From positions 1 through 37,109 of IMG/VR virus record IMGVR_UViG_3300033145_001733: a DNA stretch of 37,109 nt, one strand, 5' to 3'. The notes beneath the pieces were generated by a model. That model saw nothing but the letters and a program-made list of their open reading frames with translations, did not search any database and had not been told where the DNA came from. Both the position numbers and the translations under genes were made by a program. Each line of letters opens with the position of its first letter. Position 1 is the first letter of the stretch. Below, piece by piece: positions 3,829 to 37,109 of this stretch. Source of the stretch: a virus.

Positions 3829-5080
3829 GTATGTCCAGAAGACAAACGTGATGACGATCCTCAGGGATGACGCAGAGTACAAGATGAAGGACACCGACAC
3901 TCAGCTGCTTGTGCCCGTGGTGATCACCATGGAGGGAGTGCATAACGGGGCATACAAGGCAGCCGCGGAGATAGTACGTGCCTTCGAGTTCCTGGACTCC
4001 CTGCCAGTACCGCACTATGCCACCTGGGAGCATCCAGTGAAGATACTCCTGACACAGTTCAATGAAGCAGTGGGCTGGGTCGACAACTTCAGGATTCGAT
4101 ATGTGGAGCTGGGGGACGGGAAGAAGAAGCACAAGGCGCCGCAGATTATAGGGGACGCGCACCTGTGCAAGAAGAAGTGTTCTCCGGAGCAGATAGACAA
4201 GGTCAAGGACGGCAAGGTGAACGAGGTGAGCATCGGGTTCATCTGCCAGGAGCGCTACTTCGAGAAGCCGAAGAAGTTCATGGACCTAGAGTACCTGTCC
4301 ACAGAGCACGAGATAATCATCAATCACACTGCATTTTTAGAAGCCAACGCTCCAGCATGCAAAAGGCTACCGGATGGAGAGGGGTGCGGAACCCTAGCCG
4401 GTGGCGAGCCAGACGAAGGCAGCGACGCTGAGGAGTGTGGGTGCGATGCTGAAGACACCACGGGAGCCGAGTCCACGCATAACCTGGCTCATGCAGAAGG
4501 CGAAGCCGGTAGCGGCGTACTCGCCGTGAAAGTGTCCTCAGCATCGCCAGAGGAGGGGGCTGATCCCCCGAATGACAGTCATTCAAAAGACGAGACACCG
4601 AGCCAGGGAGAACAGGAGGAAGGTATTATGCCCGACCCCAAAGACGAAAAGAACGACACAGAAGAACCGGTGCCCGACCCTGCAAAGCCGAAGGAGGACG
4701 ACCTCGCGGCAATGAAGGAGAAGGCGAAAGCCGACGCGTTGGCGAAAGCCAAGAGGGATGAGGAGGATGCCAGCACGAAGGCAGACCTCGAGGAACTCGC
4801 ACAGCGTCGGGAGAACGAGAGACTGGAGAAGGTAAACGAGCTCGCATCCCTCACTGGCAAGAAGGCCGATGAGTACAAGGACCTCTCTGGTGTCCAGGTG
4901 AACTCTCTATTGGAGAGTACAAAAACGGCGCTATCAGCCCTCAATGCTAACTTCATTGCGGGTGGAGGCGCTGGAGTGGAGTCCGAACCGGACACAAACC
5001 AGACTGGCAAAGAGGGGCTGACCGTTGGCCACTGGAACGCTGAGAAGGGTTGGGTCGGCGGACTTGAACTCAAGGACTAG
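3803..5080 (+). CDS. Prohead protease-scaffold fusion (DUF2213-like)
   Basis: A 425-residue protein with two parts. The first ~190 residues look like a capsid maturation protease of the DUF2213/U35 type: His77 in TWEHPV and Ser143 in NEVSIGF are candidate catalytic residues. After an acidic, low-complexity linker (about 190-280) comes a charged helical region with Ala/Lys/Glu-rich coiled coil (about 290-360), typical of scaffolding proteins. The scaffold organises capsid assembly and the protease then degrades it. An internal start with a strong ribosome binding site lies at 4628. The gene sits between portal and capsid genes, the standard place for this function. Confidence 0.85.
   Translation: MAATPEPYKYVQKTNVMTILRDDAEYKMKDTDTQLLVPVVITMEGVHNGAYKAAAEIVRAFEFLDSLPVPHYATWEHPVKILLTQFNEAVGWVDNFRIRYVELGDGKKKHKAPQIIGDAHLCKKKCSPEQIDKVKDGKVNEVSIGFICQERYFEKPKKFMDLEYLSTEHEIIINHTAFLEANAPACKRLPDGEGCGTLAGGEPDEGSDAEECGCDAEDTTGAESTHNLAHAEGEAGSGVLAVKVSSASPEEGADPPNDSHSKDETPSQGEQEEGIMPDPKDEKNDTEEPVPDPAKPKEDDLAAMKEKAKADALAKAKRDEEDASTKADLEELAQRRENERLEKVNELASLTGKKADEYKDLSGVQVNSLLESTKTALSALNANFIAGGGAGVESEPDTNQTGKEGLTVGHWNAEKGWVGGLELKD
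4628..5080 (+). CDS. Nested scaffold protein (internal start in protease gene)
   Basis: An in-frame ATG at 4628 is preceded by AGGAGGA at 4614-4620 with 7-nt spacing, among the best Shine-Dalgarno matches in the genome. Starting here would give a 150-residue protein containing only the acidic/coiled-coil scaffold half, without the protease. The arrangement matches lambda, where the scaffold Nu3 is made from an internal start inside protease gene C. The signal is directly visible; use of this start is inferred. Confidence 0.65.
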   Translation: MPDPKDEKNDTEEPVPDPAKPKEDDLAAMKEKAKADALAKAKRDEEDASTKADLEELAQRRENERLEKVNELASLTGKKADEYKDLSGVQVNSLLESTKTALSALNANFIAGGGAGVESEPDTNQTGKEGLTVGHWNAEKGWVGGLELKD

Positions 5081-5091
5081 GAGGTGTAGAG

Positions 5092-6063
5092 ATGATATTG
5101 ATAAGCTCATTCATGGTGGCCATGTTCGCCGCTGTGTTCATCTCCCTGGGAATGGCTTGGATAGGATTCCCACAGGCTACCAACAAGGTCTATATCGGAG
5201 GCAGTGACGAACTCAAGCAGCGCCTCAAGATAGAGACTGCCACCAACTGTAACCCCGGAAGGCTGGTGACGAAGGGTACCAACGACGATGACCTCATAGT
5301 AGGCACTGCAATCACGCCGCCACTAGGCTGGCTTGACTACGAGACAGCCAACTATGAACACAAACCCGCGAGTCTCACCACAGCTTACGAGGCTGCTGAT
5401 GAACCCTGGGTACTCCATGGTCCCAGACGACTGTTCATCACTGACGGTCTGGCGGCCGGCTTCAGTGTCCAGAAGGGCGACCTGCTCTGCAACTGGGCAG
5501 CTGGGCAGATGGCGGGACCCTGCATGCCCATGGGCGAGGGGATGGCCCTCTCGATCCCATTCTCTAACAGCGCGGCAGCCGAGGCCGACACCGGCGTCGA
5601 CCTTCCCGCTCTGATGGTTGTGAAGGACTGCATCATCGAAGTCACCACAGCCGTGGGAGGTTCGTCTATATCTGTGGGATTGCTTTCGACAGAGGGCGGT
5701 GGAGATGCCAACGGGTTCGTTGCAGCACATGTAACCACAGCGGCCGGCTTCTTCAAGCCAGGCTGTACGGTGACCACAGGCTCCAATGAAGTGTACCTCG
5801 CGGCTTGTTTCAGGGGCGCGATGCTGGTAGACACCTTCACAGCTGGCAGCGATGCCGTTGAGGATGTCGGGACATACTTCGAGATAAACCACCTATGCGA
5901 TGGCACAGCGACTTCAGTGTCATACACGACAAGCAATCACGCAGTGGTGGGCAACATAATTCTCTTATTGTGGCACCCGAACCTTCAGATAGTCGCAAGA
6001 GCCGAGGAGACGGTTGACGCGACGGCTGCAGAAGAGGACATCAACATCACTTCACTCATCTAA
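5092..6063 (+). CDS. Head decoration-like protein
   Basis: A 323-residue protein between scaffold and capsid genes, where head decoration or stabilisation proteins are normally encoded. Residues 2-26 form a strong hydrophobic segment resembling a membrane anchor or signal. The rest is Gly/Thr/Ala-rich and probably beta-structured, with segments such as GRLVTKGTNDDDLIVGTA typical of decoration proteins. The start follows AGGAGGT with suitable spacing. The N-terminal hydrophobic segment is odd for a cytoplasmically assembled head protein, and a minor surface or membrane-linked role is possible. Confidence 0.65.
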   Translation: MILISSFMVAMFAAVFISLGMAWIGFPQATNKVYIGGSDELKQRLKIETATNCNPGRLVTKGTNDDDLIVGTAITPPLGWLDYETANYEHKPASLTTAYEAADEPWVLHGPRRLFITDGLAAGFSVQKGDLLCNWAAGQMAGPCMPMGEGMALSIPFSNSAAAEADTGVDLPALMVVKDCIIEVTTAVGGSSISVGLLSTEGGGDANGFVAAHVTTAAGFFKPGCTVTTGSNEVYLAACFRGAMLVDTFTAGSDAVEDVGTYFEINHLCDGTATSVSYTTSNHAVVGNIILLLWHPNLQIVARAEETVDATAAEEDINITSLI

Positions 6064-6075
6064 GGAGGAATGAAA

Positions 6076-6987
6076 ATGAAAAGCATAAATGAGATGATGA
6101 GATACAATGCAAGCGTTTCGCCAGAGCAGGCCAGACACATACTCGAGAGAGCCGTGTACGCTGCCAGGCAGAAGATGATCGCAAGGAAGCTCCTGGGCCC
6201 AGACATAGTCACATACAACGACGAAGGAGTCCAGTCCATAGGCGTCGACACAATGACCGAGATCGCCGACGCTGTCATGGGAATGGACCTCCCGACTGAC
6301 GCTGACATCATAGACCAGACCAGAGCGTACACCGCGATTCCGTACACTGCCAGGCCGTTCCTGATCAGGCGCAGCGACCTCGCTGCATCGAAGAGGACCG
6401 GGCAGCCGCTCGACCTGACGAACGTGGACAGCGCAACATACAAGGTCAGCAAGCTCGAGAATGCATATCTGCTGAACGGTCACTCCCTGGACGGTACCAA
6501 CTACGACTACAACGGTATGTACCAGGGCGCGGGGAACACCTACTCGACGAGCAAGGACTTCGGGACTGCAGGGAACGCTTCGGATGCTATCAGTGGTGCC
6601 ATTGCCCTCCTAGAGGCTGATGGCTTTGAGCCGCCTTACAACCTGGTGCTCAACTCCACGCAGAAGAACGAGCTGGCAATCAGTGAGATGACAGGCGGGA
6701 CCATGGAAGTAGCCATGATCAGGAACCTGCTGTCGTCTGGCTTCAGCGACAAGCTGATACCCTCGCAGTATGGTGGCATGATCCTGACCTCACCAGCCAT
6801 GGTTGCAGGCACTGGACTCGTCATGGCAGCACCCGGGACAGGCGCGTACAAGTACCACCTGGCGAAGGACCTGACAGTAGAGACCACCATCCTCGAGAAG
6901 ACGAAGGACCTGTTTGGTATCGTCTGGCTCAAGGGGCGGTTCATCTACTACGACGCGAATGCTGGCGCACAGATGTCAGCCATCTAA
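6076..6987 (+). CDS. Major capsid protein, HK97 fold, encapsulin-like
   Basis: About 303 residues. The order of motifs follows the encapsulin/linocin branch of HK97-fold shell proteins: GPDIVTYNDEGVQSI near the N-terminus; AIPYTARPFLIRRSDL then QPLDL; AYLLNGHS (encapsulin-like ED..YG position); a helix then EPPYNLVLNSTQKNEL; and a late ETTILEKTKDLFGIVW strand. It assembles the icosahedral shell. ATG 6076 is preferred over 6070 because AGGAGG at 6063-6068 leaves 7 nt to 6076 but only one to 6070. Position after scaffold and decoration genes supports the call. Confidence 0.87.
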   Translation: MKSINEMMRYNASVSPEQARHILERAVYAARQKMIARKLLGPDIVTYNDEGVQSIGVDTMTEIADAVMGMDLPTDADIIDQTRAYTAIPYTARPFLIRRSDLAASKRTGQPLDLTNVDSATYKVSKLENAYLLNGHSLDGTNYDYNGMYQGAGNTYSTSKDFGTAGNASDAISGAIALLEADGFEPPYNLVLNSTQKNELAISEMTGGTMEVAMIRNLLSSGFSDKLIPSQYGGMILTSPAMVAGTGLVMAAPGTGAYKYHLAKDLTVETTILEKTKDLFGIVWLKGRFIYYDANAGAQMSAI

Positions 6988-8032: not shown

Positions 8033-8473
8033 ATGAAGCCACAGATCAAGGTGGACGACTCGAAGTTTCGTTCAAAGATGCAGTTCGCCAGGTCTGTGTT
8101 TCACTCATTTTTCAAAGAAGTCGTTAAGAAGGGATGCCTCCGAGGTACCAGGCACATGAAGAAGGAGGCGCCTGTGGACAAGGGCCAGGGGAGAAGCGGC
8201 ATTACATACGATATCTCAGGGTACGGTATGAGTGGCCGCATCCACCCAACGCACAAGCACATGGTGTATCAGGCCAGGGGAACGCGAGCAAGTGACGGTC
8301 GGTATGTTCCAGCAATTAAGAAGCGCCTGGTGAACCCCAAGATTGGTAGGCACCCAGGAATTAAACCAAACCGATACCACGAGCGAGCGAAGAGGCTCCT
8401 CGAGGAGGACATGCCTGGGATTATAGAAGCAGAGAAGAACAAGGCAGTAGCCATGGTCAGGGGGTTCACCTGA
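8033..8473 (+). CDS. HK97 gp10-like head-tail joining protein
   Basis: About 146 residues. The pattern KKEAPVDKGQGRSGITYDI, then a region with repeated His and HPGIKPNRY near the C-terminus, is typical of HK97 gp10-like neck/tail-completion proteins (compare the common PvdtG and hPGtk.. motifs). The start is uncertain. A strong GGAGGTGG lies at 8011-8018; GTG 8015 overlaps it and ATG 8033 is 14 or more bases downstream, so neither spacing is ideal. I use the first ATG. The stop overlaps the next gene. Confidence 0.75.
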   Translation: MKPQIKVDDSKFRSKMQFARSVFHSFFKEVVKKGCLRGTRHMKKEAPVDKGQGRSGITYDISGYGMSGRIHPTHKHMVYQARGTRASDGRYVPAIKKRLVNPKIGRHPGIKPNRYHERAKRLLEEDMPGIIEAEKNKAVAMVRGFT

Positions 8474-11549: not shown

Positions 11550-12014
11550 ATGGTGAAGAACATGCAAAGGAACAAAAACGGACCGACGATATCGCTTAAG
11601 GAAGGCGTTAACGCGATCTATCTGAGGAACACTGAGACCATTCCCCGCGCAATAGCAGGCGCCGGCCGGGTGCCTGCAGGGGGAGTATTCAAAGTGTCCA
11701 GGGACAGAGGCGTGAGTATCCTCATGCAGCAGAGGTTCCTCCCAGCCACAAAGAAGGAAGTGGAAGCGCACCTCCTTGCGAAGTTTGGGAAGGACGGCCT
11801 CGATGCAAAACTGAAGGAGAAGGAACTCAAGCTCGTCCTGAAGAAGGCGACGGACTACTTCGAGGTCGCCCCACCCTGGATAGATAAGCAGAAGACATGG
11901 CAAGTGCTGGAGGAGAAGGCACAGGAACCAGAGGAAGAGGAGAAGCCAGGAGCATCCTCTGAACCCGCCCCTCCAGCAGATGACCATGGGAAAGTAGAAC
12001 CAGAGGTGGAATAA
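11550..12014 (+). CDS. Neck/tail protein of unknown function
   Basis: A 154-residue protein. The first ~90 residues include a beta-like part (AIYLRNTETIPRAIAG, GGVFKVSRDRGVSIL) and a helix. The C-terminal ~45 residues are acidic and proline-rich, probably disordered. The stop overlaps the tail-tube ATG by one base. No family is recognised; the position suggests a tail connector or head-tail accessory protein. Confidence 0.65.
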   Translation: MVKNMQRNKNGPTISLKEGVNAIYLRNTETIPRAIAGAGRVPAGGVFKVSRDRGVSILMQQRFLPATKKEVEAHLLAKFGKDGLDAKLKEKELKLVLKKATDYFEVAPPWIDKQKTWQVLEEKAQEPEEEEKPGASSEPAPPADDHGKVEPEVE

Positions 12015-12949
12015 TGGCCAGAGTAGAAAAATACATGGCAGTCGCAGAAGAGGCCGCATGGGGCACTGAAGAGGCAGCAGTGGACTACATGGCAGCCTTC
12101 AACGTGAGACCGCAGCAGAAGAAGCGCTGGGAGCCAATCGAGACCATTGCCGCAAGCTATCTCAACGACGCGGAGATCACCGGAGAGATAGGTGGAGTCG
12201 CCTGGGACTTCCCTGTGAACCCCGTGGATGGTACCGGCTGGTTGCTCAAGTGGATCATGGGCGACCCGGCGACATCCGGGACAGCCGACCCTTACACCCA
12301 TGTGTACAAGACCGACGATGTCATCCGGTCACTCACTGCGTTGGTAGGCTCGAAGGACTTGACAGAGGAACCATACGCCGGTCAGGTACTGGACACGCTG
12401 GAGTTTTCATGTGCGCCTGGTGGGTACCTCATCGCAACACCTACCATCTTCGGAACCAAGAAGGAAGCCGACAACAGCATCGGGTCCCCATCGTTCTCGG
12501 GAATCAGACCATTTCAGCACTCAGACATAACGCTGGAGATAGACACCGTGGACAAGTCCAAGTATGCAGGCACGTTGTCAATCGGGATCGCGGCGAACTA
12601 CAAGAAGGATGAGTTGACTGCAGGGAGCACAGAGATTCAGAACCAGCCCCTACACACGCTTCGAGGCTTCAAGTGGAGCATAGAGCTGTTGAGATATGAT
12701 GATGCGCTGAGGACGGCATACAACGCTGGCAACGCGGTGGACATAATGGTGAAGTTTACCGGGGCAGCCAGCTCTGAACTGCAGTTCGACATGTCTGACG
12801 CGAAGATAGACACATATCGGCACGATGTCAACAAGCGGGACGTCGAGACGCATGTGTTCAGCGGGTTCGCAACCTACGACGACACCGATGCGACAGAGCT
12901 CATCGCAACTCTATTAAACTCAGACAGCGATTATCCTGATGCCTCGTAA
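12014..12949 (+). CDS. Major tail tube protein
   Basis: A 311-residue protein opening with ARVEKYMAVAEEAAWGTEEAA, the usual start of long siphovirus tail tube proteins. A beta-rich body follows, with segments such as GEIGGVAWDFPVNPVDGTGWLLKWIMG and a late ELQFDMSDAKIDTYRHDVN strand pair. It polymerises around the tape measure to form the non-contractile tube. It precedes the chaperone and tape-measure genes, the standard order. No sheath gene is seen, consistent with siphovirus morphology. Confidence 0.82.
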   Translation: MARVEKYMAVAEEAAWGTEEAAVDYMAAFNVRPQQKKRWEPIETIAASYLNDAEITGEIGGVAWDFPVNPVDGTGWLLKWIMGDPATSGTADPYTHVYKTDDVIRSLTALVGSKDLTEEPYAGQVLDTLEFSCAPGGYLIATPTIFGTKKEADNSIGSPSFSGIRPFQHSDITLEIDTVDKSKYAGTLSIGIAANYKKDELTAGSTEIQNQPLHTLRGFKWSIELLRYDDALRTAYNAGNAVDIMVKFTGAASSELQFDMSDAKIDTYRHDVNKRDVETHVFSGFATYDDTDATELIATLLNSDSDYPDAS

Positions 12950-24239: not shown

Positions 24240-24847
24240 GCGAGATGGACAGCCCACCCCTCGATGCCTTTGCTGCGGTCGACCGGTCCAGCTGGTTCAC
24301 CTATCCCATCCCCAGCAAGACGAAGAAGGGCAAGTTCTACCCCGTCCAGTATATGCCAGGCGGCACAGACCCATATCTCGATATACACTGCCCCTGCGAT
24401 GGATTCCACTGGTACCTCATGACCAGGCTTGGTGATGACCCGAAGCCGATGTGCGACCACGCGAAGCGGGTCATGGCCATGGTCAGTACAGACTACATAT
24501 CATGGGTCCGGTACACGCCCAAGCCATTCAGGAGGGCGGACCTGATCTGGTATGTGAGACACCTGGACAAACCTGGGATATCGAAATTGATGCATGCCGC
24601 CCTGGAGCATCTGACAACTCATGACCGTATAGATGGAGACTGCCTGGACAAAGTAATAATAAATGCAGACAGACGGAACCCAACCCAGATAGTGTTCAGG
24701 CAGTTGCAGCATTATGGTGTGGTGGTGGTGATGGATCAGGTCAAGAGCAAGAACAAGGACAAGCACCGCCAGACCCACAACCTGTACCGGAGGCTGGTGC
24801 CAGCAGATGTCATGCTGGAATTGATGGCAGAGGTGATCAGGAGATGA
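24236..24847 (+). CDS. SWIM-type zinc-finger protein with winged-helix-like C-terminus
   Basis: A 203-residue protein. C52-P-C54 followed by C73-D-H75 gives the CxC...CxH ligand set of SWIM zinc fingers, which bind DNA or proteins. The C-terminal half (about 110-200) contains helices and a YGVVVVMDQ strand resembling a winged helix. It may recruit the modification enzymes to DNA. Family membership beyond the SWIM-like ligands is not clear. Confidence 0.68.
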   Translation: MSEMDSPPLDAFAAVDRSSWFTYPIPSKTKKGKFYPVQYMPGGTDPYLDIHCPCDGFHWYLMTRLGDDPKPMCDHAKRVMAMVSTDYISWVRYTPKPFRRADLIWYVRHLDKPGISKLMHAALEHLTTHDRIDGDCLDKVIINADRRNPTQIVFRQLQHYGVVVVMDQVKSKNKDKHRQTHNLYRRLVPADVMLELMAEVIRR

Positions 24848-25134
24848 AGCGAATACAGCGGAAGAGAACGGCGGGCTGGCGCATGCCAGCAAACACGGTC
24901 TACGTGGGCCGGCCAGGGAAGTGGGGCAACCCCTTCGCACCCAATGGTACCTTTCTGGTGAAGATGTGCGTGGAGATGTACCGAACCTACATCATCAAAA
25001 TGATTAAGCATGATCCCGTGAAGTATAATCTGGATGAGCTGCGCGGCAAGGACCTGGCATGCTGGTGTCCTGATGGGACGCCCTGCCACGTCGACGTGCT
25101 GCTGGTTCTCTGCGAGATGGAGGAGTGGACATGA
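24844..25134 (+). CDS. DUF4326 protein
   Basis: A 96-residue protein with the two signature parts of DUF4326: VYVGRPGKWGNPF near residues 19-31, and LACWCPDGTPCHVDVLL near 71-87 (C73, C75, C81, H82). The family is widespread in phages and prophages and its activity is not established. Its Cys/His set could bind metal. Here it sits inside an unbroken chain of ATGA-coupled genes with DNA-modifying enzymes, which makes a nucleotide- or base-related function attractive. Confidence 0.85.
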   Translation: MKRIQRKRTAGWRMPANTVYVGRPGKWGNPFAPNGTFLVKMCVEMYRTYIIKMIKHDPVKYNLDELRGKDLACWCPDGTPCHVDVLLVLCEMEEWT

Positions 25135-25400: not shown

Positions 25401-25975
25401 CCGAGCTCGAGGAGCAACCTCTCCCGCCGACAGTCTGCCCCAAGTGTGGAGCCCAGGCTACTGACGACTGCATAGTCAAGCATCGCATGAGCAACCTCGG
25501 GTACCTCCACGATGACATGGAAATGGAGTGCTCGGTCTGCGGGAACCGATGGACATGCGGGGTCCCTATAGGTACAGGTGGGTTCGACGACCTCAAATGT
25601 ACATGCCAGAGCAACGTCGAGAACAAAGCAGCGTGGTTCAGGGAGTGGTTGGATTGGACTCAGAAATCTGTTAATACCGAGCACTTCAATAGTGACCAAG
25701 AGGCAATGCTACGAGAGATGGTGGACACCTTCGAGCGGATGGCCAACCTCCTCCTGATGCACAGGGTGTCCTTGGGCGAGCTCGGCAGCGGCAAACTCAT
25801 CCATCATCTGAAGTGCCCGAACTGCTACGGCTTCACCACAGTGGTCAGGGACATTCAGCCCAGGCCTGAAGGCTGCAAGATCATCGGCCAGGGGATATCG
25901 CTGGTTGGATATCCAGAGGTGACCGGGTCCATGGAGGGCGCTGATCCCTACGGCTGGCTGAAGAAGGAAGGATGA
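25397..25975 (+). CDS. Multi-zinc-ribbon protein preceding the methyltransferase fusion
   Basis: A 192-residue protein with CPKCGA, CSVCGNRWTC, CTC and CPNC Cys clusters in a zinc-ribbon arrangement. A helical segment (about 75-125) separates the N-terminal and C-terminal zinc sites. It could bind DNA or tether modification enzymes. Start and stop both lie in ATGA overlaps, the second with the methyltransferase fusion. Confidence 0.68.
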   Translation: MTELEEQPLPPTVCPKCGAQATDDCIVKHRMSNLGYLHDDMEMECSVCGNRWTCGVPIGTGGFDDLKCTCQSNVENKAAWFREWLDWTQKSVNTEHFNSDQEAMLREMVDTFERMANLLLMHRVSLGELGSGKLIHHLKCPNCYGFTTVVRDIQPRPEGCKIIGQGISLVGYPEVTGSMEGADPYGWLKKEG

Positions 25976-27648
25976 ATTTGATATCGGATAAACGAGTGAT
26001 GGATGTATTCTGCGGTGCTGGTGGATTATCAGAGGGATTCAAACAGGCAGGGTTTGAAGTCGTGCTGGCCATCGATAGTAGCAGCACAGCGATCGAGGCG
26101 CATGCTGCCAACCATCCTGACACAGAGCACCTCTGCATGGATATCAGGGATTACGAACCCCGAGGGCGCCCTGCTAATATTGTGATCGGCAGCCCTCCCT
26201 GTGTAGAATTTAGCAGAGCAAATCAAAAACCTGACCCAGAGAAGGGCCTGGAACTCGTTGAGGAGTTTCTCCGTATAATCGAAGCAGTCAAACCGCTGTA
26301 CTGGATCATGGAGAATGTCCCGCCCCTGGAGACATATCTGTGCTATAGACATAAACATAAGTTGCCAGTCAGGAGAATATTAAACGCCGCCAATTATGGA
26401 GTCCCACAATCTCGGGAGCGATTATTCTCAGGGCTGTATATCCCACCCAAGCCAACTCATTCCAAGGCTGGAAAGTATGACACTCTAGATGGCCGGCGCC
26501 TTGAAAAATGGAGAGGCTGGGGAGAATTTATCCAGGTGGATGACCAGGACACAAGGCTGGTCTCATGCGTCAGCGAATCAAATTTCAGGAACTTCAGAAG
26601 AAACTCTAGCAAGTATCAATATCAACCCATCAACACCATAACGACATCGGGGACACCCAGACTATACAATTCTAAACGCGAGAAGATTAGATCGCTGACC
26701 ATAGAGGAGACTCAGTTGCTGTTTGGGGTACTCAGAGGACTACATTTTCAAAGGGAACCGTATGGAGCAGATTGGCAACTCAGTCCCTCCACCTCTCTCG
26801 TATGCAGTGGCTATGGCTCTGCAGGGAGGACGGTAATGCAGCTGAACCTTCTCGGGGAGACGCCGATCGACGTGATGGAGAAGCACCTGAAGGTTTACAA
26901 GCTGCGCCCCAAGAAGTGTTGCTTTGGTTTCTCAGGCGGCGATGACAGCACTGTGCTCATCGACAAGGCCGTGGAGATGTTCGGTCCGGACATCCCTGTA
27001 GTGTTCAGCAACACTCATGTGCAGTTCCAGGAGACATACAAGTTCGTGAAGGAGATGGTGGACTATTGGGGGCTGACAACATTCGCAGTGACCCACCCCA
27101 TCGAACAATTCATAGACGTGTCGACTCGGGTCGGCCTCCACGGGATCGCGCACAATAAGATGATCTGCTGCAGCGGCCTGAAGAACAAACCACTGAGTAT
27201 ATGGATGAAGGAGAATGACAAGACCATCACCATCTCAGGGCTTCGAAGGTCGGAGGGGAAGAGGAACTGCAGCTACGCAGTTCACAACTGGAACCCATAC
27301 TACAAAGTATTTTACCACTCACCGATGATGTTCATGGAGCAGCGCGACGTGGGTCGATACTTCGAGGAGACGGGCTGCCCAAAGAATCCGCTCTATGGTA
27401 TGGGGATGGACCGGACAGGCTGCGCACCATGCCCCAATGCCCTGAAGCTCCGGACATATCCTGTGGAGGGCTACAACACCTACTATGATTTACTCGCTGA
27501 CAAGTTCCCGCGCTGGTACAAGATGGCCTGGTACTGCCAGAAGCTATTTTATGACAAGCACTGCGAGGATGGAGACCAGAGAGGGTACGGCGACATGCTA
27601 TATCGACATCAATGGAAGTGGTCGCTGGCCACAGGGGAGGAGAGATGA
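25972..27648 (+). CDS. DNA cytosine-C5 methyltransferase fused to PAPS-reductase/PP-loop domain
   Basis: A 558-residue two-enzyme protein in one frame. Residues 1-~285 are a C5-cytosine methyltransferase: motif I DVFCGAGGLSEGF (11-23), catalytic PPC (C77), ENV (114-116), QSRER (146-150). The target-recognition region is short. Residues ~295-558 are a PAPS/APS-reductase-like domain: PP-loop SGGDDS (321-326), C399-C400 in ICCSGLKNKPL, and C484xxC487, the four-Cys pattern of [4Fe-4S] APS reductases and DndC-like proteins. The methyltransferase half is AT-richer than the reductase half, suggesting a recent fusion. It may methylate cytosine and activate or transfer sulfur to DNA; that chemistry is inferred. 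Confidence 0.88.
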   Translation: MNLISDKRVMDVFCGAGGLSEGFKQAGFEVVLAIDSSSTAIEAHAANHPDTEHLCMDIRDYEPRGRPANIVIGSPPCVEFSRANQKPDPEKGLELVEEFLRIIEAVKPLYWIMENVPPLETYLCYRHKHKLPVRRILNAANYGVPQSRERLFSGLYIPPKPTHSKAGKYDTLDGRRLEKWRGWGEFIQVDDQDTRLVSCVSESNFRNFRRNSSKYQYQPINTITTSGTPRLYNSKREKIRSLTIEETQLLFGVLRGLHFQREPYGADWQLSPSTSLVCSGYGSAGRTVMQLNLLGETPIDVMEKHLKVYKLRPKKCCFGFSGGDDSTVLIDKAVEMFGPDIPVVFSNTHVQFQETYKFVKEMVDYWGLTTFAVTHPIEQFIDVSTRVGLHGIAHNKMICCSGLKNKPLSIWMKENDKTITISGLRRSEGKRNCSYAVHNWNPYYKVFYHSPMMFMEQRDVGRYFEETGCPKNPLYGMGMDRTGCAPCPNALKLRTYPVEGYNTYYDLLADKFPRWYKMAWYCQKLFYDKHCEDGDQRGYGDMLYRHQWKWSLATGEER

Positions 27649-28523
27649 AGGCACTGAGGGTGCTACTGATCGCAGCCGACAGCAAGTTCCCCAACCTGGC
27701 ACTGATGAAGATTTGTGCATACCACAAGGCTCGAGGGGATGTTGTTGGCTTCAACATCAGGGACCCAGATATAGTGTACATCTCTATCATATTCACGAAG
27801 AACAGGCACAGGTGCCATGCGGAGTGGCTGTACCCCAATGCCAAGATCATAGTTGGCGGCCCAGGATACGACCCTGCGGTGCGGCTGCCTCCTGAGATTG
27901 AAAGCACTCCTCCTGATCAGAACCTGTACTCTTCCCCCTACAGCATTGGCCGCGTGACCAGCGGATGCATTCGGCACTGTAGCTTCTGCATGGTCCCGCT
28001 GATGGAGCCTGATGGTGTCAGGTACATCCAACCCGTCAAGGACATCTGGAAGCCCGGCACCATACTCCGCCTGCTCGACGACAACATCCTCGCACTCCCG
28101 GAGGCATGGGAGGAGGTGTATCAGTTCTGCAGATACAATCGAAGGGTCAAGCTGCACATGGAGTACTTCGACATCAGGCTCATGACGCCACGCATAGCGG
28201 CGCAGTTGCGCGAGCTAGTGCATGACCGCGGCCTGTGGTTCTCCTACGACTTCACGGCCATAGAGCCGGCAGTCCGAGCCGGTGTTGCAATGCTCAAGGA
28301 TGCGGGGTTCCCGGGAACATCCATCCACTTCTTTGTCTATCTCCACGATGAGGCGATGATTCCTGACGCGAGACAACGGTGGGCGATCCTCCGGGAGCTC
28401 GACGTCGAGGGGTTCGTGATGAGCAATGCTGACCATAGGACTGATAGAATCAAGAGGATCACGCGGCTAGGTACCCGGCCTGCAGCATGGCGCGGCATGA
28501 CTGCAGAGGAGTTGTTCCTATGA
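27645..28523 (+). CDS. Radical-SAM enzyme with N-terminal B12-binding-like fold
   Basis: A 292-residue protein. ATG 27645 follows GGGGAGGAG; an upstream in-frame ATG at 27612 lies inside the previous gene. Residues 1-95 resemble the Rossmann-like domain preceding many radical-SAM enzymes (SKFPNLALMKICAYHKARGD, then IIVGGPGYDP), without a DxHxxG cobalamin motif. C108, C112 and C115 (CIRHCSFC) bind the cluster. A TIM-barrel-like remainder follows. Members with PNLALMK occur in phages and bacteria without known substrate. It is coupled to both neighbours, so a step in DNA base modification is plausible. Confidence 0.82.
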   Translation: MKALRVLLIAADSKFPNLALMKICAYHKARGDVVGFNIRDPDIVYISIIFTKNRHRCHAEWLYPNAKIIVGGPGYDPAVRLPPEIESTPPDQNLYSSPYSIGRVTSGCIRHCSFCMVPLMEPDGVRYIQPVKDIWKPGTILRLLDDNILALPEAWEEVYQFCRYNRRVKLHMEYFDIRLMTPRIAAQLRELVHDRGLWFSYDFTAIEPAVRAGVAMLKDAGFPGTSIHFFVYLHDEAMIPDARQRWAILRELDVEGFVMSNADHRTDRIKRITRLGTRPAAWRGMTAEELFL

Positions 28524-29794
28524 ACCACCTGCTACTGGTCGGTGACGTCCTGGATGGGCTGGCAGTCCTCGAGGATGAGAGCGTTCACTGCATCGCCACC
28601 AGCCCACCATACTGGGCACTGCGGGACTATGGCATGCCCGGGCAGCTGGGAATGGAGCCGACGATCGAGGAATATATCAAGAGGCTGCTGCAGGTGACAG
28701 CAGAGCTCTGGCGGGTCCTCCGCAAGGACGGTATAATGTTCTGGAACCATGGGGACAACTACGGCGGGTCCTGGAAGGGTGGCCAGGGGAAGCATGAGCT
28801 CAAGAAGGGGACTGCAAAAACCTCCCTGCAGGGAGTTGGGAAGCCGAAGTGCCTGTGCCTGCAGAACTACAGGCTGGTGCTGCAGATGATTGATCACCAG
28901 GGCTGGATACTCCGCAACGACATCACCTGGCACAAGCCCGGTGGCATGCCCTCGAGCGCCAAGGACCGCTTCACCAACACCACCGAGCCAGTATTTATGT
29001 TCGCCAAGAGCAGAAAATACTACTTCGACCTGCACTCCGTCAGGGTTCCTCATAAGGACTTCCGAGAATACAAGCGCAAGCCCTCATTCAATTACAGAGT
29101 CAAGGAGGCCAAGGCTGGTCACACCAGCATCCTCGGGATACACACAACACCTGAGGAGATGCTGAGGTACGATGGCCAGGGAAGGAAGTGTGAGAACGTC
29201 CCAGGGCAGAAGCCGACGAGCTTCGCCAGGAAAAAGAACAGTGGCTACTTCAACGAAGATGGGGAATGCACTGTCAATCCTGGAGGGAAGAACCCTGGGG
29301 ATACATGGAGCATCCCACCGCAGCCATTCAAGGAGGCCCACTTCGCAACCTTCCCCGAGAAACTTGTCAGGCCCATTGTCACAGTAGCATGCCCGAAGGA
29401 AGTCTGCACAGCCTGCGGTGCTCCTCGAACCCGCATCATCAAGAGAGATGAGGTAAGCACTGCCGCCGATTCTGAGGCATGCCGAACTCAGGCGGACCCT
29501 TCTCAGAGTGTCCGCAGGGCGCCCCAACCCAACCAACCAGGGGCATTCTATACGGGTCACACTGCTGGCTGGACAGACTGCGGTTGCGGTGCGGAGTTTG
29601 AACCAGGTGTGATCCTCGACCCATTTGCAGGCAGCGGTACCACCATGAAGGTTGCAGCAGATCTGCATCGACAATCTATCGGCATTGAATTGAGTCTAGA
29701 GTACGTCGAGATAATCAAGAAGCGGCTCGCCGGGTACAAGGGGAAGGTCGACCTCGAGGGGAATGTGTTCAGGCTCAAGATACAGAAAGTATAG
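28520..29794 (+). CDS. Beta-class DNA methyltransferase (N4-cytosine or N6-adenine)
   Basis: A 424-residue enzyme from ATG 28520. The motif order is beta: catalytic SPPYW (28-32) near the N-terminus and the SAM-binding motif VILDPFAGSGTTM near residue 363. WHKPGGMP at about 141 is common in SPPY-type methylases. Between them lies the target-recognition region, with an inserted zinc site (VCTACGAP and DCGCG). SPPY usually goes with N4-cytosine methylation but is not decisive. It may protect viral DNA from restriction. It is the last gene of the coupled block; a TATA element follows. Confidence 0.87.
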   Translation: MNHLLLVGDVLDGLAVLEDESVHCIATSPPYWALRDYGMPGQLGMEPTIEEYIKRLLQVTAELWRVLRKDGIMFWNHGDNYGGSWKGGQGKHELKKGTAKTSLQGVGKPKCLCLQNYRLVLQMIDHQGWILRNDITWHKPGGMPSSAKDRFTNTTEPVFMFAKSRKYYFDLHSVRVPHKDFREYKRKPSFNYRVKEAKAGHTSILGIHTTPEEMLRYDGQGRKCENVPGQKPTSFARKKNSGYFNEDGECTVNPGGKNPGDTWSIPPQPFKEAHFATFPEKLVRPIVTVACPKEVCTACGAPRTRIIKRDEVSTAADSEACRTQADPSQSVRRAPQPNQPGAFYTGHTAGWTDCGCGAEFEPGVILDPFAGSGTTMKVAADLHRQSIGIELSLEYVEIIKKRLAGYKGKVDLEGNVFRLKIQKV

Positions 29795-29807
29795 TGTTTT
29801 ATTATCA

Positions 29808-29856
29808 CAAATATATATAAACTCCCGCAGCAATATCGGGAGTATGAGCCGGGGAG
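29808..29856 (+). promoter_or_regulatory. Promoter with palindromic operator for ParB-methyltransferase gene
   Basis: ATATATATAAA at 29811-29821 is the clearest TATA element in the genome. CTCCCG (29822-29827) and CGGGAG (29837-29842) form a perfect 6-bp inverted repeat with a 9-base spacer, lying exactly between the TATA and the expected start near 29841. A repressor bound there would block transcription. GGGGAG (29851-29856) is the ribosome binding site for ATG 29863. Confidence 0.7.
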
Positions 29857-29862
29857 ATTTTT

Positions 29863-31479
29863 ATGAAGCCTGACAAGAGTAAATATAAAATAGTCTGGAT
29901 GAAGCCGAGCGACATCATTCCATGGGAAGGGAACCCGAAGCTGCACAACCAAGAGGGGATCAACGAGAGCGTGAATCAGCGCGGCATTCAGAACCACATC
30001 ACCATACAGAAGTCCAGCAAGAAGATTATCACGGGCCATGGTAGGCTCGCGGCGTTCCTTGCTGCGGAGTACGATGAGGTGCCGGTGCGCGAGTGGGACT
30101 GCAGTGATGAGGAGGCCATAGCCTTCGCCCTGGATGACAATCAGCTGGTGATGGAGCCGGGCTGGGATGACAGCAAACTCTATGACGCCATCAAGGACCT
30201 GAAGGACAGCGATTCGCTGGACCTGCTCCTGGGATTCGACGAGGACGACATCAATGCCCTGATTGAGACCTTCGACCCGACAGAGATAGAGGAGGATTCG
30301 GTGCCTGATATCCCGGCGCAGCCCAAGAGCAAGCGCGGTCAGGTCTACCAGCTGGGAAACCACCGACTCATGTGCGGGGATTCATGCAGCGAGGATGACG
30401 TCAAGTTACTGATGAATGGCCTGCAGGGAGACATGGTGTTCACTGACCCACCCTATGGCGTCAGTTACACAGGGCAGTCACGCGATTGGGAGATGATAGA
30501 GGGGGATGAAGACCTCGAGGCGATCAGGAATGCACTCCCTGTCCTTCTGCGATACGTAGTGCCAACTGCAACGCTGTACATCTGCTCCGCGAGTAAGTTC
30601 TGCCACAACGTCCAACAGATATTCGACGACAACGATGTCTATTTCTCGGTCCCTATCATCTGGAACAAGGGCAGGGCAGGCGTCAGCTGGTACCGCTACC
30701 ATCCACACTATGAATTGATATACCATGCAGGTGCCGGCGCGAAGCCCACGGGATCACAGAGCGTGTGGTACGGTCCCAACAACGAGACGACCGACTGGGA
30801 CATAGGCAGGGACACAGGCACCTACGTCCATCCAACGCAGAAGCCGGTTGCACTCAGTGCCCGGGCCATCAAGAACTCCAGCAAGAAGGGCGCGCTGGTC
30901 TTGGACATCTTCGGCGGCAGCGGCAGCACTCTCCTGGCAGCAGAGCAGCTCGAGAGGACCTGTCACATGATGGAGATTGACCCGCGCTATGTTGACGTCA
31001 TCATCCTGAGGTGGGAGAACTACACAGGAAAGAAGGCGGTCCTCCTGGAGGAGGGGGCGCCGGCCTTGGCGGGACAGCAGCAAGAAGACGTTATAGAGCT
31101 CAAGGCACTCACCATCAAGGAACCATGGGCCTCAAAGATACTCCGCGGGGAGAAGACAATCGAAACCCGATCGAGACCAACGAAGCACCGCGGCCCACTC
31201 GTACTCCACTGTGCACAGACACCGAAGAGCAACCTCAGCGGCAACCTGTTCGCAGTCGTAGACCTACACACCTCGAGGAAGATGAAGAAGGCCGACGAGA
31301 AGGCTGCATGCTGCAAGGTGTATAATGGTGCGAACTCATGGGCACTCAAGAACCTCCGGCCTATAACCCCACTGATCAAGGCGAAGGGACAGCAGGGCTT
31401 CTTCAAGGTCACCATACCGCGGAGATACCTGGACAGCAACCCCTCCCCAGACCCCTCCCCTGATCAGGTGGTACCGTGA
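29863..31479 (+). CDS. ParB-like nuclease / DNA methyltransferase / ASCH fusion
   Basis: A 538-residue three-domain protein. Residues ~5-110 are a ParB/sulfiredoxin-like domain with ITGHGRLAA. Residues ~155-395 are a beta-class DNA methyltransferase: TDPPYG near 193, and LVLDIFGGSGST near 345. Residues ~408-525 form an ASCH domain (LTIKEPWASKILRGEKTIETR), a PUA-like fold linked to RNA and modified-base recognition. ParB-methylase fusions occur in many phages; the ASCH addition is uncommon to my knowledge. It probably modifies viral DNA, the ASCH part perhaps reading modified bases. It has its own regulated promoter. Confidence 0.87.
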   Translation: MKPDKSKYKIVWMKPSDIIPWEGNPKLHNQEGINESVNQRGIQNHITIQKSSKKIITGHGRLAAFLAAEYDEVPVREWDCSDEEAIAFALDDNQLVMEPGWDDSKLYDAIKDLKDSDSLDLLLGFDEDDINALIETFDPTEIEEDSVPDIPAQPKSKRGQVYQLGNHRLMCGDSCSEDDVKLLMNGLQGDMVFTDPPYGVSYTGQSRDWEMIEGDEDLEAIRNALPVLLRYVVPTATLYICSASKFCHNVQQIFDDNDVYFSVPIIWNKGRAGVSWYRYHPHYELIYHAGAGAKPTGSQSVWYGPNNETTDWDIGRDTGTYVHPTQKPVALSARAIKNSSKKGALVLDIFGGSGSTLLAAEQLERTCHMMEIDPRYVDVIILRWENYTGKKAVLLEEGAPALAGQQQEDVIELKALTIKEPWASKILRGEKTIETRSRPTKHRGPLVLHCAQTPKSNLSGNLFAVVDLHTSRKMKKADEKAACCKVYNGANSWALKNLRPITPLIKAKGQQGFFKVTIPRRYLDSNPSPDPSPDQVVP

Positions 31480-33807: not shown

Positions 33808-33971
33808 CCAAGGACGACGAGAAGGACAACCGCGTGACCATCAAGGCAGAGACCTCGAAGATGGATATCTCGAATGCCATGGTGGTGGAGAAGAGGGCGG
33901 TGGAGATCACTGCAGAGGGAGACGTGAAGACTCTGATCAAGCATGCGAAGGACGCCATCAAGGACCTGTAA
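33804..33971 (+). CDS. Small charged protein
   Basis: A 55-residue Lys/Glu/Asp-rich protein ending with DVKTLIKHAKDAIKDL. It is coupled by ATGA to the gene before it. It is the last gene before the large intergenic RNA region. Function unknown. Confidence 0.5.
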   Translation: MTKDDEKDNRVTIKAETSKMDISNAMVVEKRAVEITAEGDVKTLIKHAKDAIKDL

Positions 33972-33983
33972 CAAATCCCCAAA

Positions 33984-34016
33984 GATTTATAACTCTATCA
34001 ATATATATATGCTCGG
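33984..34016 (+). promoter_or_regulatory. Promoter for structured RNA and packaging operon
   Basis: GATTTATAAC (33984-33993) and the run ATATATATAT (34001-34010) are TATA-like elements. The second is followed directly by GCTCGG; together ATATGCTCGG (34007-34016) is identical to 18931-18940 in the early promoter. Transcription is expected to start near 34030, upstream of the structured RNA and the genes leading to terL. Confidence 0.6.
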
Positions 34017-34040
34017 TGATTGGATATGTAATATACATAA

Positions 34041-34225
34041 CGGTCGCCTCAACTAGCGCACCAATGGACACACCACTCAAAAATGTGTCCGGGACCGTAG
34101 CATGCTGCGGTCCTTAACGCTTCTTGATATCATGGGTGACACCTCGGGCACCTGACCGTGTCCAGGGGGAGCACGATGTTGACCCTGCCTGCGTTGGCAA
34201 GAAACCAGTGCTCCCCTGAATACAT
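34041..34225 (+). ncRNA. Strongly structured intergenic RNA
   Basis: About 185 bases with no credible coding frame and several good helices. GGACACA/TGTGTCC (34066-34072, 34084-34090) forms one hairpin. GGACCGTAG/CTGCGGTCC (34092-34100, 34105-34113, one G-T pair) forms a second. AGCG/CGCT (34055-34058, 34118-34121) can enclose both. GACAC/GTGTC (34138-34142, 34158-34162) is a third. CAGGGGGAGCAC/GTGCTCCCCTG (34163-34174, 34208-34218, one bulged G) forms a long arm holding TGCC/GGCA (34186-34199). It may be a free small RNA or the leader of the next operon. No known family recognised. Confidence 0.65.
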
Positions 34226-34249
34226 TTACATAAGAGCCAGGTGAAAAAA

Positions 34250-34378
34250 ATGACAGGACTATATACGTTTGTGAACATGATGACCGCGGAGCAGGCTTGC
34301 CAACTGGGGAGGATGGCAGCAATCAGTGACCTTATTGCAGTGGGCAAGGGTCACCTACTGAACGGGAGGCTAGCATAA
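34250..34378 (+). CDS. Tiny protein after structured RNA
   Basis: A 42-residue, mostly helical protein (MTAEQACQLGRMAAISDLIA). ATG 34250 follows AGGTG at 34239-34243 and an A-run. Its stop overlaps the next ATG by one base (TAATG). It could be a leader peptide that couples the RNA structure to translation of the downstream operon. Confidence 0.55.
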   Translation: MTGLYTFVNMMTAEQACQLGRMAAISDLIAVGKGHLLNGRLA

Positions 34379-34797
34379 TGGAAGACGACCAGGACAGACA
34401 GCAGAAGCATGACGACCACGATCGCAAGGAGAGGGAGAAGAGGGCAGACCCCGGACCTTCAGATTCAAAGCGTGAGCAGCCAGAAGCGGAGCCTGTGAAG
34501 AGGAAGTCCTACAGGTGCAGCATCTGTAAGCAGCCGGGACACAGGGCGCCGGACTGCAAGGAGGCCACTGCAGAGGGCGAAGCAGCTGGGGCAAGGGCGG
34601 ACGTGATCCTAGCGATGAAGGAGTACTATGGGAACGACTGGAAGATGCTGGCCGAGCTGCTGAACCAGATGTACGTCATCGAGGGGAAGACTAAAATCAA
34701 GGTGCAGGGCCTGGTCGATATCATGTACAGGGCGCTCGAGGCGCAGGCAAACGTCAGCGTGGACATCGTGATAAGCACTCCCCTGGGTGAGTACTGA
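34378..34797 (+). CDS. CCHC zinc-knuckle protein
   Basis: A 139-residue protein. The first ~45 residues are charged and disordered. Residues 47-60 (C47, C50, H55, C60) form a perfect CX2CX4HX4C knuckle, CSICKQPGHRAPDC, the retroviral nucleocapsid type that binds single-stranded RNA or DNA. A helical/strand domain (about 75-139) follows. This motif is frequent in eukaryotic RNA-binding and retroelement proteins and is unexpected in an archaeal tailed virus. It lies downstream of the structured RNA, a plausible partner. Confidence 0.72.
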   Translation: MEDDQDRQQKHDDHDRKEREKRADPGPSDSKREQPEAEPVKRKSYRCSICKQPGHRAPDCKEATAEGEAAGARADVILAMKEYYGNDWKMLAELLNQMYVIEGKTKIKVQGLVDIMYRALEAQANVSVDIVISTPLGEY

Positions 34798-36011: not shown

Positions 36012-37109
36012 TTGCTTGTCACTGACATCTGGGCTGACGAGAGGCGATGCCGTGAGGACATCGTCCACAACATCCTCACCACATTCGGTGTCAAGGAACT
36101 GACGCCGATGCAGACCCGGATACTCAAGGCGATACGGCCAGCGGAGAATGATGGTACCAATCGGGTGGCAGTGGCGTCAAACCATGGGTTCGGCAAGACA
36201 TTTCTCTCAGCCATGGCAACCCTTGATTTTATGAGCGTGTATGGTCACGATGAGGCAGTGGTGATCACGACGGCGCCGGTGGGGAGGCAATTCAAGAAGC
36301 AGCTCTGGCCAGAGGTCAAGAAGTGGGGCAGGCCTGTGGCGGAGCGGTTCGGCTGGAGGTTCATGCCGGACGCTCCGGAGATGAAGACACAGATGGACAC
36401 TTCGTTTGCGATCGGAATCCCCAGCAAGCACCCTCATGAGTTCGAGGGGTACCATGCAGAGCACCTGATGGTGATAGTGGACGAGGCCAAGGGAGTAGAC
36501 GACGACATCTTCATCAGTGTCGACGCGCTGCAGCCCGACGTAATCCTCTACACCTCTGTCCCTGCAGGGAGGAACGGCGCGTTCTATGAGGCATTCAATA
36601 AGGAGAATTGGGTGACGTTCAGGGTGGACGGCGAGCGATTCAACGAGACCAATGGGGAGCGCGTGAAGATGTCCTGGATAGACTACATGCGGGACGAGTA
36701 TGGCCCAGAGAGTTCAGTGTACCAAAGGAAGGTGCAGGCCAGGTTCTCGAAGGTCACGGAGTCCAGTTACTTCAATGAGATAGGAATCGACCAGGCAGTA
36801 GCGCGGCACCTATCGAGCCAGGGGCGGCCCCGCATGCTGGTGGTGGACTGGGCGAAGGACGTCGACTTCAATGCCCGGGTGACATTCCACGGTCACCGCG
36901 TCATGGACATCATCACCGAGCAGCACAGGGACTACATGCAGATCATCGGCGACATCAAGAGGAAGCACGACAAGCACCCCTATGACATCATCATCGCTGA
37001 CCTGGGCGCAGGCGCTGGGCAGATAGACAGGATGCGGGAGCTTGGGCTGCCGGTGTATGGCTTCAGGATGACAGGCGGGATGAGCGCGTCCTACTCCGAG
37101 AAGGAGCGG
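36012..37109 (+). CDS. terL: Terminase large subunit, N-terminal part
   Basis: The ATPase and first part of the nuclease domain of a ~449-residue protein that continues at base 1. The adenine/Walker A region is SNHGFGKT (56-63); Walker B is MVIVDEA (Asp157, Glu158). Nuclease acidic residues are Asp279 in VVDWAKD and Asp330 in IIADLGAG. The start is uncertain: the frame opens at 35985, no ATG occurs before 36108, and TTG 36012 is the best candidate (CTG 36003 is possible). Residue numbers count from TTG 36012. It is the motor that packages viral DNA. Confidence 0.93.
   Translation, partial: MLVTDIWADERRCREDIVHNILTTFGVKELTPMQTRILKAIRPAENDGTNRVAVASNHGFGKTFLSAMATLDFMSVYGHDEAVVITTAPVGRQFKKQLWPEVKKWGRPVAERFGWRFMPDAPEMKTQMDTSFAIGIPSKHPHEFEGYHAEHLMVIVDEAKGVDDDIFISVDALQPDVILYTSVPAGRNGAFYEAFNKENWVTFRVDGERFNETNGERVKMSWIDYMRDEYGPESSVYQRKVQARFSKVTESSYFNEIGIDQAVARHLSSQGRPRMLVVDWAKDVDFNARVTFHGHRVMDIITEQHRDYMQIIGDIKRKHDKHPYDIIIADLGAGAGQIDRMRELGLPVYGFRMTGGMSASYSEKER
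37051..37109. repeat. Terminal direct repeat, copy 2 (circular junction)
   Basis: This is identical to bases 1-59. It lies inside the terminase gene and marks the point where the linear representation closes into a circle. Confidence 0.95.

Follow-up and report, generated by a model that had tools for sequence, protein, structure and literature searches.

A candidate structured 5' leader upstream of the packaging genes in a likely archaeal tailed virus

Described structured RNAs and the virus under study

In archaeal and bacterial messages, structured 5' leaders, among them riboswitches and protein-binding leaders, lie between a promoter and a Shine-Dalgarno site, fold into several hairpins and may engage in alternative pairing with the Shine-Dalgarno region. 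In all these respects they resemble the segment described here, positions 34041-34225 of the virus record IMGVR_UViG_3300033145_001733 (the window, i. e. the whole stretch of 37,109 nucleotides that was analysed). Unlike the known leaders, the segment has no match in Rfam, no ligand-linked gene and a Shine-Dalgarno gating at the level of chance. Structured RNAs are also carried by phages: GOLLD and ROOL, phage-borne RNAs of unknown function, are far larger than the segment and are found near tRNA islands, and many GOLLD RNAs exceed 800 nt (PMC12286853). The segment is likewise virus-encoded, non-coding and structured, but it comprises 185 nt, is not located beside a tRNA island and matches neither of the two Rfam families. 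The manA and wcaG motifs from cyanophages and marine metagenomes are backed by comparative alignments (PMC2864571); as structured RNA motifs of tailed viruses they are similar to the segment, and no Rfam match to them was obtained here. For archaea, a review has cautioned that predicted RNAs may be parts of untranslated regions instead of sRNA genes (PMC3432209), and the reading that we prefer, a leader within an untranslated region, agrees with this warning. Our literature search for structured and non-coding RNAs of archaeal viruses yielded reviews, along with motifs from bacteria or phages, and no study of such a leader in a tailed virus of archaea. As presented in this study, the segment is a real and statistically strong candidate for RNA structure, an orphan, and most likely a leader.

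The first 59 bases of the record (1-59) are identical to the last 59 (37051-37109), so that the genome is circular, with a length of about 37,050 bp, and apparently complete. As judged from its proteins, the virus is likely a tailed virus of an archaeon: the matches of the portal protein include ANMV-1 and haloarchaeal tailed viruses, the tail tube protein matches HHTV-1, and the major capsid protein (6070-6987) is encapsulin-like, with a match to Linocin_M18 (E 6e-22). Of 393 genomes from the phylum of a Methanomicrobium genome, 35 matched the capsid protein, the best of them with relatives of 29-37% identity that are ascribed to proviruses, and none were present in 152 genomes from the phylum of a Methanobrevibacter genome. 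The archaeal host probably belongs to the former phylum; a search for the host by the tRNA pattern identified none. A tRNA-Met (CAT) gene is located at 1255-1328, with an AT-rich promoter region ahead of the portal gene, and the ANMV-1 virus has a tRNA-Met as well (25877-25952 of its sequence, L005). Moreover, the genome encodes a C5 cytosine DNA methylase fused in one protein to a PAPS reductase domain (25972-27648), two N6/N4 DNA methylases, one of them with an ASCH domain (28487-31479), and a DUF4326 protein (24844-25134, E 2.2e-24).

Fold and coding content of the segment

On the + strand, the segment has a minimum free energy (MFE) of -76.6 kcal/mol. Three independent sets of shuffled sequences gave z scores of -4.58 (0 of 200 shuffles as stable), -4.16 (1 of 400) and -4.76 (0 of 200), and this comparison bears out the claim of the first-pass annotation that so much pairing is unlikely to occur by chance. 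The - strand is less stable (z -2.62 and -2.98). The preference for the + strand, which supports a leader, is most pronounced in the three-way-junction domain at 34043-34140, the strongest part of the fold (z -4.97 on the + strand, -2.43 on the - strand); the segment of hairpin D alone (34165-34217) reaches z -3.75. When the genome was tiled with 199 windows of 185 nt, the shuffle z had a mean of -0.19 and a standard deviation of 1.16, and the window at 34039 (z -4.42) was the lowest of all and the sole one at or below -4. Weaker folds were obtained for the other large intergenic gaps included in the test (z -0.2 to -2.6 on the + strand), again in support of a leader.

In a dense scan in which the dinucleotide content was corrected by regression, the segment ranked 11th among 3706 overlapping windows, with a handful of coding loci at or above it. 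One coding locus, 11871-12055, which spans the last part of one gene and the beginning of that for the tail tube protein, has a shuffle z of -5.29, beyond that of the segment. The fold is extreme yet not unique in the genome, and since a coding locus is equally extreme, energy alone is no proof of function, a point that counts against the leader. These observations bear on the idea that the gap is a promoter and leader region with no function as a structure, and that its fold is a relic or an extreme value reached by chance. The rank of the segment once composition is accounted for, behind several coding loci, agrees with this idea, as does the chance-level pairing of the Shine-Dalgarno site discussed below; z scores below -4 in each of the three shuffle sets and the lowest value among the 199 tiled windows make it unlikely.

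The three-way-junction domain is made up of an enclosing helix of 6+4+4 bp (34043-48/34135-40, 34049-52/34124-27 and 34055-58/34118-21) around hairpins A and B. Hairpin A (34066-34090) combines a 7-bp stem, GGACACA/TGTGTCC at 34066-72/34084-90 with pairing probabilities of 0.83-1.0, with an 11-nt loop, and hairpin B (34091-34114) has a 4-nt loop on a 10-bp stem that may be counted as 10-11 bp (GGGACCGTAG/CTGCGGTCCT, 34091-100/34105-114). They are followed by hairpin C (34146-34163, 6 bp) and by hairpin D (34165-34217), a 10-bp hairpin with inner helices whose stem of 9-10 bp is formed by GGGGGAGCAC/GTGCTCCCCT at 34165-174/34208-217. Stems of 7, 9 and 11 bp and an enclosing helix had been described before: the stems were found at their places, with 7, 9-10 and 10-11 bp and the 6-bp hairpin in addition, whereas the enclosing helix, present in the MFE fold, was lost in many transcripts. 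This became apparent when pairing probabilities were computed for transcripts with 27 different combinations of start and end. Hairpins A and B had probabilities of at least 0.83 in all 27 combinations. Hairpin D reached 0.98-1.0 for ends up to 34300 and 0.04-0.88 with longer 3' ends that include the downstream gene; a 9-nt match between its apex and 34296-34304 may contribute to this variation. The probability of hairpin C ranged from 0.31 to 0.98 across transcript ends. The enclosing helix is the least secure part, since its probability was close to 0 in all tested transcripts that begin at 34012 and in most of those reaching into the downstream gene, and its absence from predicted longer transcripts is another argument against the leader. 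Inspection by eye for H/ACA or C/D features revealed an ACA at 34222 below hairpin D, without a consensus kink-turn or RUGAUGA box, and there was no match to an Rfam snoRNA.

The segment is best read as non-coding, in agreement with a leader. Its six frames score between -0.31 and +0.03 per codon, as compared to means of 0.46 (sd 0.21) in true and -0.29 (sd 0.15) in false frames; one + strand frame (0.03) and one - strand frame (-0.02) are above the mean of false frames and well below the gene mean. Hidden coding was rejected for the small open reading frames as well, with scores of -0.10 to 0.11 for four on the + strand and -0.33 to -0.04 for three on the - strand. In none of the frames does the coding signal resemble that of the virus's own genes, in agreement with the statement of the first-pass annotation on the + strand.

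Promoter, translation start and packaging genes

The segment is part of a 280-base non-coding gap ahead of the DNA-packaging genes, one of the longest that this densely packed genome contains. The TATA promoter and the 42-codon gene that were said to flank it could both be located, at 33986 and 34250, respectively. The TATA-box-like TTTATAA at 33986-33992 (+ strand) is preceded by an A-rich, BRE-like CAAAGA. Such sites are rare: TTTATA[AT] occurs three times in 37 kb, twice within intergenic DNA, which amounts to roughly 1.6 kb, and the other intergenic site (1334) precedes the portal gene, the first gene of the structural block. From the usual archaeal TATA spacing, the predicted start of transcription lies at about 34010-34016. 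A second possible TATA element, ATATATATAT at 34001-34010 (+ strand) with TATATA at 34002 and 34004, would place the start at about 34030-34036. Just upstream of the RNA, an inverted repeat, TATGTA-ATA-TACATA (34025-34039), is possibly a regulator site or promoter element, and ATTTACATAA at 34224-34233 is related to it as a direct repeat.

Downstream, a Shine-Dalgarno site, AGGTGA (34239-34244, + strand), is placed 5 nt ahead of the ATG at 34250, and no terminator-like site was seen in 33900-34500. As far as can be told from the DNA, the segment is thus situated between a promoter-like TATA box and a translation start with no terminator-like site between them. The rare TTTATAA, the Shine-Dalgarno site, the lack of such a terminator and the length of the gap are what a leader of the downstream genes would predict. 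The first of these genes (34250-34378, + strand) has 42 codons and a codon score of 0.31, within the range of genes. It is followed by a gene whose 139-aa product carries a CCHC motif resembling a zinc knuckle (34378-34797, + strand), by further small genes and then by terL (from 36003, + strand), which encodes the 452-aa large terminase and crosses the circular junction at 37109 to about base 311. The Pfam match of the CCHC protein to zf-CCHC (PF00098) is marginal (E 0.00049, 20.5 bits as compared to a cut-off of 20.8), and its structure model is poor (mean pLDDT 54) and inadequate for a fold search. The assignment of terL is based on profile matches (phrog_5902, E 1.3e-25; the terminase profile phrog_7579, E 0.029) and on tblastn matches to annotated terminases.

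We suggest that 34041-34225 belongs to the packaging operon as its structured, cis-acting 5' leader, and we assign to this reading a probability of about 0.45. Transcription would begin by means of the TATA box near 33986, and a leader of roughly 210-240 nt would fold into three to four stable hairpins. Transcription would then run on through the small genes into terL, in what may be a single operon, and the leader would most likely act in cis and set how stable the packaging-gene message is or how well it is translated, perhaps when bound by a viral or host protein or by shielding the message. It is very doubtful that the segment represents a new class of viral RNA regulators, in which the leader would control the packaging operon through a viral protein, e. 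g. the CCHC protein, or a ligand.

The same features can be read in other ways. With its own TATA box, its compact multi-hairpin fold and its lack of coding potential, the segment might be a small RNA of the virus in its own right, about 190-210 nt long, that acts in trans, as may be the case for structured RNAs of phages; this is rather unlikely, given that no terminator-like site follows hairpin D, that a well-placed Shine-Dalgarno site and a gene are found 22 nt further on, and that neither an Rfam family nor a homologue elsewhere was found. It has also to be considered that the inverted repeats act as DNA, as an operator, a pac or cos site or an origin of replication to which a dimeric protein binds, and that the RNA fold is a by-product. 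Indeed, hairpin B contains the only 22-nt near-palindrome of the genome (34092-34113, at most one mismatch per arm), the AT-rich stretch with the other inverted repeat adjoins it, and the locus is upstream of the terminase gene block. However, about 0.3 such palindromes are expected by chance according to our own estimate, the fold is more stable on the + than on the - strand because of G-U pairs in the helices, terL is 1.8 kb away, and the GC skew is positive throughout with no switch at 34041-34225, so that we regard a DNA site as quite unlikely. An ORB-type replication origin was rejected, as the ORB-like motif is no more common than expected by chance.

Shine-Dalgarno pairing, relatives and biological meaning

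For the leader, a control of translation by occlusion of the Shine-Dalgarno site was considered. Around the Shine-Dalgarno site, CAGGUG (34238-34243) is the complement of CACCUG in hairpin C (34149-34154); in the bare leader the two pair with a probability of up to 0.46, and the Shine-Dalgarno site is unpaired with a probability of 0.16-0.48. Between 26 and 91 of 100 shuffled leaders pair the site at least as well, and the enrichment of CACC is not significant (P 0.09). Since shuffled leaders mask the site equally well, the pairing is no evidence of a switch; sequestration was rejected, and this result weighs against the leader. Among the roles that had been proposed for the segment, a leader of the downstream genes is the one that fits best, with the TATA box, the missing terminator and the Shine-Dalgarno site with its ATG, whereas its riboswitch-like version found no support, as gating does not exceed the shuffled controls and no Rfam family is matched. 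A packaging signal and binding by the zinc-knuckle protein, which had been suggested as well, may be considered on account of the proximity of the genes concerned.

The search of Rfam that had been called for (release 15) assigned no known family to 34041-34225: in the whole window only the tRNA at 1255 reached the gathering threshold, and a permissive search of 33950-34400 gave only chance matches to microRNAs. No close relatives were present in the viral contigs scanned with terL, the major capsid protein, the zinc-knuckle protein and the portal. The terL alignment comprises 80 loci with identities of up to 31%; besides terL, only methyltransferase genes matched, in four of the terL loci or of the phage records tested alongside. 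The 31 loci aligned by the major capsid protein (27-39% identity) have portal, scaffold and capsid genes in common and are devoid of this type of terL, of the small genes preceding it and of the RNA. DNA patterns for the pair of hairpins A and B and for the Walker motif of terL retrieved nothing related. A covariance model built from the single sequence, which detects only fairly similar RNAs, found itself and chance matches among the terminase and capsid relatives, and its best hit in 393 archaeal genomes had an E value of 0.07, a chance level at that number, so that no homologue was identified. This is a further point against the leader; since the single-sequence model sees only fairly similar RNAs, diverged homologues may still exist.

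Strongly folding gaps were also observed in other viruses. In an archaeal relative (L148), two gaps between terL and the portal gene (5268-5520 and 8294-8450) have z scores of -6.9 to -7.9 and no Rfam match, and one of them contains a long perfect hairpin. In a Manatee Spring virus (L007), a gap upstream of terL (4512-4731) folds on either strand with z scores of about -4.4 to -5.4 and carries repeated GTGTCC/GGACAC-like units. As the sequences and settings differ, these gaps were rejected as homologues of the segment.

If the leader works as proposed, archaeal tailed viruses would time or tune the packaging of their DNA at the level of RNA, and the segment would provide a compact element for testing this idea.
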